Notes under the pieces: generated by a model
The model's input: only the letters and a program-made list of their open reading frames with translations
Told to the model about the DNA's origin: nothing
Databases searched by the model: none
Translations under genes and position numbers: made by a program
DNA from: Rubrobacter xylanophilus
Lineage (GTDB): Bacteria; Actinomycetota; Rubrobacteria; Rubrobacterales; Rubrobacteraceae
Length of the DNA: 64,000 bases
Direction: 5' to 3'
NCBI RefSeq assembly: GCF_007164525.1
Contig: NZ_AP019791.1
Coordinates: 607,501-671,500 of the forward strand
Part shown: positions 33,780 through 37,821 of the stretch, piece after piece
Position numbering within the stretch: the stretch's first letter is position 1
How the letters are laid out: each line of letters begins with the position of its first letter

Positions 33780-34733
33780 CTGCGAAAGCTGATCGTCGTT
33801 TTGTCCGCGGTCTTTCTCCTGGTGTCTCCGTCTCTGGCCTGCGGCGGTGGGGAGCCGGCTACGCCCGGGGCGTCCACCACCTCCCCGGAAGGCGCTGTAC
33901 GGGGGGAGGAGGTCTCTGGGGGCGGCGGGGCGGAGGCCACGGAGCAGATCCCCTTTGCCTTGAACCTGCAGCAGCCCGTCCCCCCCGATTTCCGGGCGGC
34001 CTACCAGCGGCGGGCCCGGATCGCGGTGACCTTCTACGACACGGGACAGGATCCCTTCTACCCGCAGGGGCTGGAGGTGGACGCTCTGGTGCGCGGCTAC
34101 ATGGAGCGGCTGCGCGCCGAGTATCCGACGATAGAGTTCTTCTCCTACGACATCTCCGAGCCGGGGACGGCCCGGGTGAGCGAGGATCTGGATCCCGGTC
34201 AGTACGGGACCCTCGCCGCCCAGCTGGGGGTCGGATACACTCCGTGGGTGGCGACGCTGGCGCCCAGCGGGGACGCCTACGTCATCCTGAACGTCTTCCA
34301 GGGTTACACCCCCCAGCCGGTGCTCAGCCAGGCGCTCTTCGAGCTCAGCTCGGTGGAGGTGGAGGACAACACCAGCGACCTGGACGTGACGCTGGAGCGG
34401 GTGACGCTCACCCGGGCGGGCGGCGGCATCGAGTACTTCACGGTGCGCAACCGGGGATCGGAGCCGGTGCAGCTGCAGGGGTTCTCGCTGCGGGTGATGG
34501 ACCCGGAGACCGGGGAGGTGGGCCCGGACTCGCCGGGGGTGGTCGTAAACCAGCGGCTGACGCTGCAGCCGGGCGAGAGCGCCTCGCTGGGGAGGGGCCC
34601 GGAGGTGACGGACGGTGCGGGCCGGCCCGTCGACGGGACCTTCGAGGGCGGCCAGCGGCTCGAGCTCGCCCCCGGCGACCAGCTGGCGCTTCTGGACCCG
34701 GGCGGGGCGGTGGCCGCCACGACGACCGTCTGA
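33780..34733 (+). CDS. Lipoprotein with thioredoxin-like and lamin-tail-like domains, CTG start
   Basis: Starting at CTG 33780 the protein (317 residues) has an ideal lipoprotein signal: MRKLIVVLSAVFLLVSPSLA followed by Cys21. No ATG, GTG or TTG upstream in frame gives a signal peptide. A low-complexity Gly/Glu linker (about 22-55) leads to a thioredoxin-like fold (IAVTFYDTGQDPF, VGYTPWVATLAPSG) without a CxxC, so it is not a redox enzyme. The C-terminal half (about 205-317) is a beta-rich lamin-tail-like domain (IEYFTVRNRGSEPVQLQGF). A weak TTCTAT -10 lies upstream. Confidence 0.75.
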   Translation: MRKLIVVLSAVFLLVSPSLACGGGEPATPGASTTSPEGAVRGEEVSGGGGAEATEQIPFALNLQQPVPPDFRAAYQRRARIAVTFYDTGQDPFYPQGLEVDALVRGYMERLRAEYPTIEFFSYDISEPGTARVSEDLDPGQYGTLAAQLGVGYTPWVATLAPSGDAYVILNVFQGYTPQPVLSQALFELSSVEVEDNTSDLDVTLERVTLTRAGGGIEYFTVRNRGSEPVQLQGFSLRVMDPETGEVGPDSPGVVVNQRLTLQPGESASLGRGPEVTDGAGRPVDGTFEGGQRLELAPGDQLALLDPGGAVAATTTV

Positions 34734-34776: not shown

Positions 34777-35946
34777 ATGACCGCGGAGAAGAGCGCAGTA
34801 TACCTGGACAACGCCGCCACCACCCCTCTGGACGAGCGGGTGCTCGGGGCCATGCTCGAGGGCCTGAGGGGGCTGCGCGGCAACCCCTCGGCGCTGCACG
34901 CCCCGGGGGCCGACGCCCGGGAGGCGATAGAGGAGGCCCGGGAGGGGGTGGCCGCCCTGATAGGTGCCTCCCCCGAGGAGGTGGTCTTCACCTCCGGCGG
35001 GACCGAGGCGGACAACCTGGCCCTCTTCGGGCTAGCCCGTTCCGCCCCGTCCCACAAGCGGCACGCGGTGATCTCGCGGGTCGAGCACCCGGCGGTGCGG
35101 GAAGCCGGGCGGCGGCTGGAGGCCGAAGGCTTCGAGGTCACCTGGCTCGGGGTGGATGGGTACGGGCTGGTGGACCCGGGGGCATTCGAGGCGGCGCTCC
35201 GGGAGGACACGGCGTTCGCCGCGGTGATCTGGGCTAGCGACGAGGTCGGCAGCGTCCAGCCGGTGGGGGAGCTGGCGGCGGCGTGTGCGGAGCGCGGCGT
35301 TCGCTTCCACGCCGACGCCGTGCAGGCGGCCGGACGGCTCCCGGTTGACGTGGGGGAGGTGCCGGTGAGCACGCTGGCCCTCTCCGCCCACAAGCTCTAC
35401 GGGCCGCAGGGGGTGGGGGCTCTCTACGTGCGGGAGGGCGCTGAGCTCTCCCCCCTCGTCCTGGGCGCCGGCCAGGAGCGGGGTCTGCGCAGCGGCACCG
35501 AGAACGTCGCGGCCATCGCCGGGTTCGGGGTCGCGGCCCGGCTCGCGGCCGGAGAGCTGGAGGAGCGGGCCCGCCACGAGCGCGCGCTGCGGGACAGGAT
35601 CCTCGCCGGCGTCCGGGAGATGGAGGGCATCCGGGTCAACGGGCATCCCAGGGAGCGGCTGCCGAACAACGTGCACCTGACGGTCGAGGGGGTGGAGGCC
35701 GAGGGGCTCGTGCTCTTCCTCGACGCGCTGGGGTACGCCGTCGGCAGCGGCGCTTCCTGCTCCTCCGGCGGCCACAAGGCCTCCCCCGTCCTGCTGGCGA
35801 TGGGTCTCGGCGAGCGCGAGGCCTTCTCCTCGATCAGGGTCAGCGTGGGCAAGGACAATACTCCCGAGGAGATCGACGGCTTTCTTGCGGCCTTCCGTCA
35901 GGCCGTCGGCCGGCTGCGCGAGCTCTCCCCACTGCAGGCGGGGTGA
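34777..35946 (+). CDS. Cysteine desulfurase (NifS/IscS class)
   Basis: This PLP enzyme (389 residues) takes sulfur from cysteine as a persulfide. Landmarks are LDNAATTP at the N-terminus, His104 over the PLP ring, Lys206 binding PLP (SAHKLYGPQG), and the mobile-loop Cys328 in GSGASCSSGG. The usual VNNEIG block reads ASDEVG, so Asp155 replaces the Asn that normally contacts the PLP phenolic oxygen. It lies 3 nt upstream of the IscU-like::MnmA fusion, which makes it the likely sulfur donor for 2-thiouridine. Confidence 0.95.
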   Translation: MTAEKSAVYLDNAATTPLDERVLGAMLEGLRGLRGNPSALHAPGADAREAIEEAREGVAALIGASPEEVVFTSGGTEADNLALFGLARSAPSHKRHAVISRVEHPAVREAGRRLEAEGFEVTWLGVDGYGLVDPGAFEAALREDTAFAAVIWASDEVGSVQPVGELAAACAERGVRFHADAVQAAGRLPVDVGEVPVSTLALSAHKLYGPQGVGALYVREGAELSPLVLGAGQERGLRSGTENVAAIAGFGVAARLAAGELEERARHERALRDRILAGVREMEGIRVNGHPRERLPNNVHLTVEGVEAEGLVLFLDALGYAVGSGASCSSGGHKASPVLLAMGLGEREAFSSIRVSVGKDNTPEEIDGFLAAFRQAVGRLRELSPLQAG

Positions 35947-35949
35947 GGG

Positions 35950-37419
35950 ATGCCCGAGCGCTACGGTCCGCGGGTCATTGAGCACCTGGTCAACCCCCGC
36001 AACGCCGGTGAGGTCTCCGGGCCCTCCGGTGTCGGCGAGGCCGGGAACGCTGCCTGCGGGGATCAGGTACGCTTCACCCTCGCCGTGGGAGAGGACCTGC
36101 GCCTGGAGGAGGTGCGCTACCGGGCCTACGGGTGCGCCGCCTGCATAGCCGCGGGTTCGGCGCTCGCGGAGCTCGTCGAGGGCCGGACCATCATCGGGGC
36201 GGCCCGCGTCTCGCGGGGGGAGCTCCAGGAGGCGCTCGGCGGGCCGCTCCCGCCGGGCAAGGAGCACGGCGTGACCCTGGCGCTCGACGCGCTGCACCGG
36301 GCCTTCGAGGACTACTGGAGCCGACAGGGGGACGCGCTGCTCGCCGGAGACGGCTTCGGGGACGGAAGCGGCGGGCGGCGGGGGGTCGTCGCCGCGATGA
36401 GCGGCGGGGTGGATTCCGCCGTCACCGCGCTGTTGCTCAAGGAGCGGGGTTACGAGGTGGTGGCGGTGACCTTCCGGCTGCACGACGGGGAGCCGGGCAG
36501 CCGGTCTTGCTGCTCGCCGGACACCGTGCTCTTCGCCCGGGAGACGGCCCACCAGATGGGCATCCCGCACTTCACCCTCAACCTCAGGGAGCTCTTCGAC
36601 CGGCGGGTCATGCGGGACTTCGTCGGGTCCTACGCCGCCGGCAGGACCCCCAACCCCTGCGTGGCCTGCAATGCCCACGTCAAGTTCCACGCGGCGGCCT
36701 TCCTCGCCGACCGGCTGGGGCTGCGGCACGTGGCCACCGGGCACTACGCCCGGGTGGGGGAAGGGCCGTGCCTGGAGCGTCCGGAGGACGGGCGCAAGGA
36801 CCAGACCTACGTCCTCTGGCCTGTCCCGCGGGAGCTGCTCGGGCGCACCATCTTCCCGCTCGGGGACTACCGCAAGGACGAGGTGCGCAGGATGGCCGAG
36901 GAGCGGGGGCTCGCCGTGGCCCGGACGCCCGAGAGCCAGGACATCTGCTTCATCCCCGACGGGGACTACCGCTCCTTTGTCCGGCGCCGGGTCAGGAGCG
37001 AGCCCGGGGAGATCGTGGACCGGCGGGGGCGGGTGCTGGGTCGCCACGCGGGGGTCGTGAACTTCACCGTAGGGCAGCGGCGGGGGCTCGGGGTCTCCGC
37101 CTCCACCCCGCTGTACGTGACCGAGGTGCGGCCGGAGAGCCGGCAGGTGGTGGTCGGGAGCCGGCGGGAGCTGGAGGTGCGCGAGGTGCTCGTGCGCTCG
37201 GCCAACTGGTTCCTGGACCCGCGGGAGGCCGCGCTCGTGCAGGTGCGCTACAACAGCGAGCCGGTCCCCTGCGAGGTGGAGAGGGGCGGGGACGGCTGGG
37301 AGGTGCGGCTGCTCGAGCCGGTCTTCGGGGTCGCGCCCGGGCAGTCCGCGGTGTTCTACACGCGGGATGGGACGAAGGTGGTGGGCGGCGGCATCATCGC
37401 CCGGCGGGACGCTGCTTGA
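35950..37419 (+). CDS. mnmA: Fusion of an IscU-like scaffold domain with tRNA 2-thiouridylase MnmA
   Basis: The protein has 489 residues. Residues 1-125 are an IscU/NifU-N domain (RVIEHLVNPRNAG, GNAACGDQV with C36/D38, YGCAACIAAGSALAEL with C62 and an extra C65). The third scaffold cysteine is lost: LPPGKEHGV has Gly107 where IscU has Cys106. After a Gly-rich linker (about 132-143) comes a full MnmA: the PP-loop SGGVDSA at 151-157, PNPCVACN with Cys237/Cys240, and DICFIP with Cys333. MnmA thiolates U34 of Lys, Glu and Gln tRNAs. Its desulfurase partner is the adjacent upstream gene. The RBS is GAGGG before the ATG. Confidence 0.95.
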   Translation: MPERYGPRVIEHLVNPRNAGEVSGPSGVGEAGNAACGDQVRFTLAVGEDLRLEEVRYRAYGCAACIAAGSALAELVEGRTIIGAARVSRGELQEALGGPLPPGKEHGVTLALDALHRAFEDYWSRQGDALLAGDGFGDGSGGRRGVVAAMSGGVDSAVTALLLKERGYEVVAVTFRLHDGEPGSRSCCSPDTVLFARETAHQMGIPHFTLNLRELFDRRVMRDFVGSYAAGRTPNPCVACNAHVKFHAAAFLADRLGLRHVATGHYARVGEGPCLERPEDGRKDQTYVLWPVPRELLGRTIFPLGDYRKDEVRRMAEERGLAVARTPESQDICFIPDGDYRSFVRRRVRSEPGEIVDRRGRVLGRHAGVVNFTVGQRRGLGVSASTPLYVTEVRPESRQVVVGSRRELEVREVLVRSANWFLDPREAALVQVRYNSEPVPCEVERGGDGWEVRLLEPVFGVAPGQSAVFYTRDGTKVVGGGIIARRDAA

Positions 37420-37431
37420 GGAGGTGGGGTT

Positions 37432-37821
37432 TTGGAGTTGTTCGTCGAGCTCATGAAAGGTCTGCTGTACGCGGGGATCGCTGCGGCCTTCTTTCTGCTG
37501 GCGTGGGCGTTTTTCAGGCTGGCGAGGATCTTCTCGGCCGCCGAGAGGAGCCTCAGGGAGATCTCCGAGCAGGTCGTGCCGCTCATCGGGAAGACCCACA
37601 CCACCGTCGACAACATCAACAGCCAGCTCTCGCAGCTCGACGAGGCGGTCGGGGACGTGGCCGGGATAACGGACGAGCTGGACCAGACGACCACGGTCAT
37701 AACCCGGGGCGTGAGGGGCGGGGTCATCCGGCTCTCCTCGGCCACCGCCGGGCTCTCGCGGGGCATCAGCGCGTTCCTTGGCACCAGGGCACCGGAGCAG
37801 AAGGGAGGGCGAAGAGAGTGA
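37432..37821 (+). CDS. DUF948 (YtxG-like) membrane-anchored protein
   Basis: The protein has 129 residues. One N-terminal TM helix (about 8-30, LLYAGIAAAFFLLAWAFFRL) is followed by a long helical DUF948 region (SLREISEQVVPLIGKTHTTVDNINSQL). It resembles Bacillus YtxG, a general-stress protein under SigB control. The TTG start follows GAGGAGGTGG. Its stop overlaps the GTG of the next, YtxH-like gene. The role is unknown. The position directly upstream of an RsbW-like protein and a SigB/F-type sigma factor supports a stress link. Confidence 0.85.
   Translation: MELFVELMKGLLYAGIAAAFFLLAWAFFRLARIFSAAERSLREISEQVVPLIGKTHTTVDNINSQLSQLDEAVGDVAGITDELDQTTTVITRGVRGGVIRLSSATAGLSRGISAFLGTRAPEQKGGRRE

Follow-up and report, generated by a model that had tools for sequence, protein, structure and literature searches.

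An IscU-type domain fused to the tRNA thiolase MnmA in Rubrobacter and other Actinomycetota, a candidate sulfur-delivery module

Both the route by which sulfur reaches the tRNA thiolase MnmA and the involvement of an Fe-S cluster are disputed (PMC11784392). In B. subtilis (YrvO-MnmA, PMC5372745) and M. tuberculosis (iscS-trmU, PMC10848736), a desulfurase is encoded next to mnmA and sulfur passes directly from desulfurase to MnmA, with neither a Tus relay nor an IscU domain. In the clostridial iscR-iscS-iscU-trmU operon (C. perfringens cpe1786-1783, PMC2940859), the desulfurase, scaffold and thiolase are separate genes, and the scaffold is a standard three-cysteine IscU with His that serves general Fe-S assembly. 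MnmA proteins of the Thermus type (C-type; Shigi 2020, as cited in PMC11784392 and PMC8584467) carry a CC-CxxC-C motif set, are expected to hold a [4Fe-4S] cluster and have no fused scaffold; the bound cluster has been shown only for the Thermus protein (PMC8584467). The Fe-S dependence of E. coli MnmA, invoked in a preliminary description of the present locus, has indeed been reported but is contested (PMC11784392).

Here we describe a locus of Rubrobacter xylanophilus in which a single gene joins an IscU-type domain to a complete MnmA. It lies in a 64,000-nucleotide stretch of the genome (hereafter the window). The locus has the same three activities in the same order as the clostridial operon and the CC-CxxC-C set of the Thermus type. 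Like the YrvO-type abridged pathway, it has an adjacent desulfurase (3-nt gap); unlike that pathway, its MnmA bears a fused IscU domain. The genome does not have the TusE of the Tus-dependent E. coli s2U34 pathway: PF04358 gave no match in the complete genome, while the E. coli control was positive.

The fusion gene, its neighbours and its distribution

The fusion occupies one open frame on the + strand (35950..37419; its parts and the desulfurase gene below lie on this strand), starting with ATG and encoding 489 amino acids plus the stop codon. Profile searches bore out the preliminary reading of both frame and domains. Residues 1-128 (35950..36333) form the IscU-type domain, supported by the Pfam NifU_N profile (99.6 bits over residues 5-127), the fold match and dN/dS. 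A linker follows (residues 129-142, 36334..36375), which is weakly constrained and falls in a low-confidence part of the AlphaFold2 model. The remainder, residues 143-489 (36376..37419 including the stop codon), is a complete C-type MnmA by NCBIfam NF001138 (382 bits; cut-off 284) and by fold match. The MnmA domains PF03054, PF20259 and PF20258, all above cut-off, cover residues 146-483, and the PP-loop SGGVDS is present. From this curated score, the Pfam domains and the PP-loop, the MnmA part is assigned as a tRNA 2-thiouridine(34) synthase.

The C-type motif set is complete, comprising the CC motif C187-C188 (36508..36513, by motif comparison), the CxxC motif C237-x2-C240 (36658..36669) and C333 (36946..36948), which is matched through the DICF motif to the catalytic Cys199 of E. 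coli MnmA. C237, C240 and C333 are invariant in 12 of 12 diverse fusions; all fused MnmAs that we read are of the CxxC type, and nearly all have the CC motif. By analogy, a [4Fe-4S] cluster probably sits at the active site C237/C240/C333. The Fe-S link suggested in the preliminary description is thus plausible, since the Thermus member of the CC-CxxC-C type requires [4Fe-4S] (PMC11784392, PMC8584467).

An AlphaFold2 model of the fusion (60 related sequences) reached a mean pLDDT of 94.4 and a pTM of 0.92. Its N-terminal part has the IscU fold (Z 20-22), matching A. fulgidus IscU 4eb5_C (Z 22.2, 2.1 Å over 132 residues) and E. coli IscU 3lvl_A (Z 20.0); the remainder matches the TrmU/MnmA structures 2hma (Z 40.7) and 2det_A (Z 39.8). 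As MnmA makes up only ~70% of the chain and yet the pTM is high, the model suggests that the IscU domain occupies a defined position on MnmA.

Immediately upstream lies a class-I (IscS/NifS-like) cysteine desulfurase of 389 amino acids (34777..35946), which scores 415 bits with TIGR03402 NifS, under the equivalog cut-off of 530.75, and 356 bits with PRK14012 IscS. Its TGA is followed by GGG and then by the ATG of the fusion, which confirms the 3-nt gap given in the preliminary description. Conserved flanking genes, shared by several actinobacterial families, encode a DUF4232-type protein upstream of the desulfurase (33801-34733) and, on the downstream side of the fusion, a DUF948 protein (37432-37821).

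The complete genome carrying the window measures 3.02 Mb, and a Rubrobacter MAG (metagenome-assembled genome) matches at 91% identity. Intact fusions were found in 18 Rubrobacteraceae genomes; in four Rubrobacteraceae genomes the IscU and MnmA parts are separate adjacent genes, each with a start codon of its own, and in some cases stop and start overlap briefly. We then scanned 396 actinobacterial genomes, accepting only matches that ran uninterrupted over both domains. Such matches occurred in at least 62 genomes from at least 10 families, and reading 56 loci bore out the single frames. This breadth disposes of the concern that the fusion might be absent from related genomes. Named records with relatives of the fusion come from Rubrobacter, Thermoleophilia, Thermoleophilaceae and Solirubrobacterales. 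In families f1, f14, f21, f27, f29 and f39 the gene order is aspS - fusion - (DUF948) - (sigma factor) - alaS - ruvX, the bracketed genes being absent from some loci. Beside the fusion of L075, L078, L089 and L093 (f49, f68), the opposite strand encodes a divergent second protein, 28-30% identical to MnmA over the first part of the latter.

No fusion was found in 299 Clostridia-group genomes: among the matches listed, each two-domain match contained at least one stop, which indicates adjacent genes instead of a fusion. Most of the Clostridia-group loci read have the order iscS-iscU-mnmA with a normal three-cysteine IscU, and the actinobacterial family f18 shows the same unfused order. One pattern-limited scan that sampled phyla beyond Actinomycetota and the Clostridia group returned no fusion. 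In the MnmA tree the fused proteins fall in two groups, and a single origin of the fusion is not rejected (AU p 0.28). The simplest history runs from iscS-iscU-mnmA to the fusion, followed by later fissions, domain loss (L111) and disappearance of the adjacent iscS.

The altered scaffold site and the probable sulfur donors

In free human ISCU2, Fe is held by Cys69, Asp71, Cys95 and His137; persulfide is accepted specifically by Cys138, and in complex with the desulfurase a cysteine of the desulfurase loop joins the metal (PMC11021402). The equivalents in the fusion are C36 and D38 (C36-G37-D38, 36055..36063), C62 (aligned with Cys95; 36133..36144 together with an extra cysteine, C65) and H106 (His137), which is followed by G107 in place of Cys138 (36265..36270). 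All six residues stand where the preliminary description had placed them, and the loss of the third scaffold cysteine is confirmed: C36 and C62 are there, but the three-cysteine assembly site is incomplete. The domain scores 107.3 with TIGR03419 (cut-off 187.9), 75.0 with TIGR01999 (cut-off 192.4) and 44.8 with the SufU profile TIGR01994 (cut-off 92.5), and the position of the fourth SufU ligand Cys is Gly. Below these curated cut-offs and with its acceptor cysteine lost, the Rubrobacter domain is, judged by its sequence, not a standard scaffold.

Nor is the domain a decaying passenger in Rubrobacter. Comparing the window gene with two close Rubrobacter relatives, we obtained dN/dS values for the IscU domain (0.174 and 0.181) close to those for the MnmA part (0.170 and 0.148), so that purifying selection acts on both alike; the linker, of only 13-14 codons, gave 0.57 and 0.95.

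Across families f1, f14, f29 and f39, C36, D38, C62 and H106 are invariant in all 43 aligned fusions, and position 107 is Gly or Ala in every one; five named Thermoleophilia-type records agree with this pattern. Read against ISCU2, this group retains the metal site but no longer has the acceptor. Elsewhere the site has changed differently. C36, D38, C62 and C107 are kept and His106 is replaced in f27, f49 and one of two f68 sequences, while the other f68 sequence additionally has no C36; the single f57 sequence, whose alignment is uncertain there, keeps three cysteines and has no His. Erosion is deeper in f21 (D38, C62 and the third cysteine lost), f5 (D38 and the third cysteine lost) and f24 (one sequence, all ligands lost), and fused genomes with these eroded sites also encode an unfused IscU that scores high against the family. 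In f21, C62 is replaced by Ser and D38 by Ala or Val in L067, L069, L070, L072, L090 and L094, and one tested genome also carries a separate high-scoring IscU. IscU K103 is required for IscS binding (PMC2854127). Its equivalent is Lys or Arg in all aligned f1, f14, f27, f39, f49 and f68 fusions and basic in most f5 fusions; this position (K104) is non-basic in most f29 fusions and in f21.

The adjoining desulfurase is the likely sulfur donor in Rubrobacter, and one adjoins the fusion in all Rubrobacteraceae loci read. In L117, a Rubrobacter MAG, the adjacent IscS frame (L117:1476-2648) has one in-frame stop, a sequencing error or a pseudogene. We also considered an adjacent IscS as the universal partner and rejected it: among fused loci, adjacency is limited to Rubrobacteraceae and f57. 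A class-I desulfurase is encoded elsewhere in f14, f21, f27, f5, f49, f68 and f24 (1-2 genomes tested per family), and none was found in four fused f29/f39 genomes, 96-97% complete (e.g. L071, L080, L081, L100). In these four the best desulfurase match, 28-33% identical, lies beside SufU and is SufS, the only desulfurase found there. The three-part thiolation system of the preliminary description therefore stands as a compact sulfur route beside the desulfurase, but it does not generalize beyond Rubrobacteraceae and f57; in the other fused families the desulfurase is non-adjacent.

MnmA is single copy in the Rubrobacter genome. As to a free-standing scaffold, the other point raised in the preliminary description, no IscU exceeds the curated ISC cut-off, but a SufU is present beside SufS. 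The further NifU_N proteins are a second SufU-like three-cysteine protein and a cysteine-poor relative, and one TusA-family protein is encoded. Judging from the NifU_N, TusE and TusA content of the genome, general Fe-S assembly appears to proceed via SUF, and the fusion locus appears to be a separate tRNA-thiolation unit. The cysteine-poor relative (141 aa, L004:1471-1893; in its own genome C1, around 252086-252442) has most of its Cys ligands replaced (GEGDTIS, RTRNATLG) and directly follows a gene for a rhodanese-type sulfurtransferase.

A possible sulfur-docking module and its alternatives

We hypothesize, giving the idea an even chance, that the IscU-derived domain is not a cluster-building scaffold but a dedicated metal-assisted sulfur-docking and transfer module for its own MnmA. 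The analysis establishes the fusion, how widespread it is, the conserved site and the selective constraint; metal binding, docking and each step of sulfur transfer are inferred. A single metal ion, Zn or Fe, would be bound by C36/D38/C62/H106, and the domain would dock on a cysteine desulfurase; for Rubrobacter this would be the IscS-like product of the gene immediately upstream. The metal would then pull out the persulfide-bearing Cys loop of the desulfurase. As the residue at the position of the usual acceptor (ISCU2 Cys138) is Gly or Ala, the sulfur would not be committed to Fe-S assembly and could reach C237/C240/C333 in the active site of MnmA, either directly or by way of C36 or C62. Such a module would most likely stand in for a Tus relay.

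Several observations speak for this module: the IscU fold and family, the purifying selection shared with MnmA, invariant C36/D38/C62/H106 with Gly or Ala at 107, a basic residue at the K103 equivalent, the adjacent desulfurase of Rubrobacteraceae and the absence of TusE. The defined position on MnmA that the high pTM suggests also fits. A fused acceptor domain would make sense in f29/f39, with only SufS beside SufU, since class-II desulfurases depend on SufE/SufU-type partners (PMC8300815). Against it, several fused families (f21, f5, f24) have lost ligands, so the chemistry would not be universal; K104 is non-basic in most f29 fusions and in f21; and one TusA-family protein is present. A model of the desulfurase and the fusion as one chain, with the TGA read as Trp purely as a modelling device, gave a pTM of 0.69, a low-confidence Cys loop and no confident docking. 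In f2 and f36, moreover, MnmA lies beside IscS without an IscU domain, as in B. subtilis and M. tuberculosis, making the domain one solution among several.

The fusion could be thought an artefact, two neighbouring genes joined through a frame error, given the four Rubrobacteraceae genomes with separate genes. The chance of this is negligible. The split versions have start codons of their own, many independent genomes carry the fusion as an open frame, both parts show low dN/dS, and the same uninterrupted frame in 18 Rubrobacteraceae genomes excludes the frameshift or assembly error that the preliminary description had named as a caveat. Its own proposal of a persulfide relay through C62 and C65 within the domain has fared poorly. 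Both cysteines are present in the window protein and in 26 of the 29 Rubrobacteraceae sequences checked, but the close Rubrobacter relative L117 has Ser at position 65, as does L058, L026 has Thr, and among the aligned fusions C65 occurs in no other fused family. The relay is thus unsupported, and we regard it as very improbable.

Two further readings, both unlikely in our view, concern what the domain does for MnmA. Were it only to tether MnmA to the desulfurase or to tRNA, with no chemistry of its own and with structural or inherited cysteines, the persistence of the f21, f5 and f24 fusions without a full ligand set would be explained, as would the separate intact IscU in some of these genomes; the absolute conservation of C36/D38/C62/H106 in f1, f14, f29 and f39, however, exceeds what a tether needs. 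Still a little less probable is that the domain assembles or passes on an Fe-S cluster and so loads the [4Fe-4S] of its own MnmA. Such a role is conceivable because the MnmA half is C-type, the type for which [4Fe-4S] is required in Thermus (PMC8584467), and C36, D38, C62 and C107 are all present in L075 and in the fusions of f27 and f49. But the largest groups have no cysteine to accept sulfur for cluster building; the remaining fused families have lost His, and f21, f5 and f24 more than that, and a lost ligand weakens the reading. The Rubrobacter domain also lies under every curated scaffold cut-off, and many C-type MnmAs have no fused scaffold.

Returning to the sulfur-docking module, we tentatively extend it, with well under even confidence: loss of the acceptor cysteine and fusion may have turned a scaffold into a metal-gated persulfide presenter, which would open the desulfurase loop and leave the sulfur free for tRNA thiolation. 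The fused sites would then form a natural series of ISCU variants across deep Actinomycetota, along three routes: some kept the His without the Cys, others the Cys without the His, and others again lost several or all of the ligands.

Significance and comparison with described systems

In Rubrobacter and many other deep-branching actinobacteria, the altered site suggests a scaffold converted into a private sulfur-delivery module for tRNA. With metal ligands kept and the acceptor cysteine lost, the fusion sets apart two roles, metal binding and persulfide acceptance, that a single scaffold normally combines, and the altered site could reveal how sulfur is steered to tRNA and away from cluster assembly. 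As a covalent acceptor-plus-thiolase unit conserved in several actinobacterial families, it lends itself to study with a single purified protein plus its desulfurase.

In the open-licence literature searched we found no published description of an IscU/NifU-MnmA fusion. The domains and the pathway are known; the coupling is widespread, the active-site change informative and the combination apparently undescribed. The zinc-dependent sulfur-transfer protein SufU (PMC4934914) resembles the fused domain in its IscU fold and Cys/Asp/Cys metal site, whereas the fused domain is ISC-type in sequence, has His instead of the fourth cysteine and has no SufU insertion. The nearest published idea is the N-terminal domain proposed for Plasmodium/apicomplexan MnmA (PMC10219651), likewise of the sulfur-acceptor type and thought by its describers to take sulfur from a desulfurase for the MnmA domain. 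That proposed domain is SufE-like, belongs to SUF, is placed in the apicoplast and was recognized via fold modelling; the Rubrobacter fusion, in contrast, is bacterial, and its IscU domain is clearly of the ISC type and has conserved metal-site residues.
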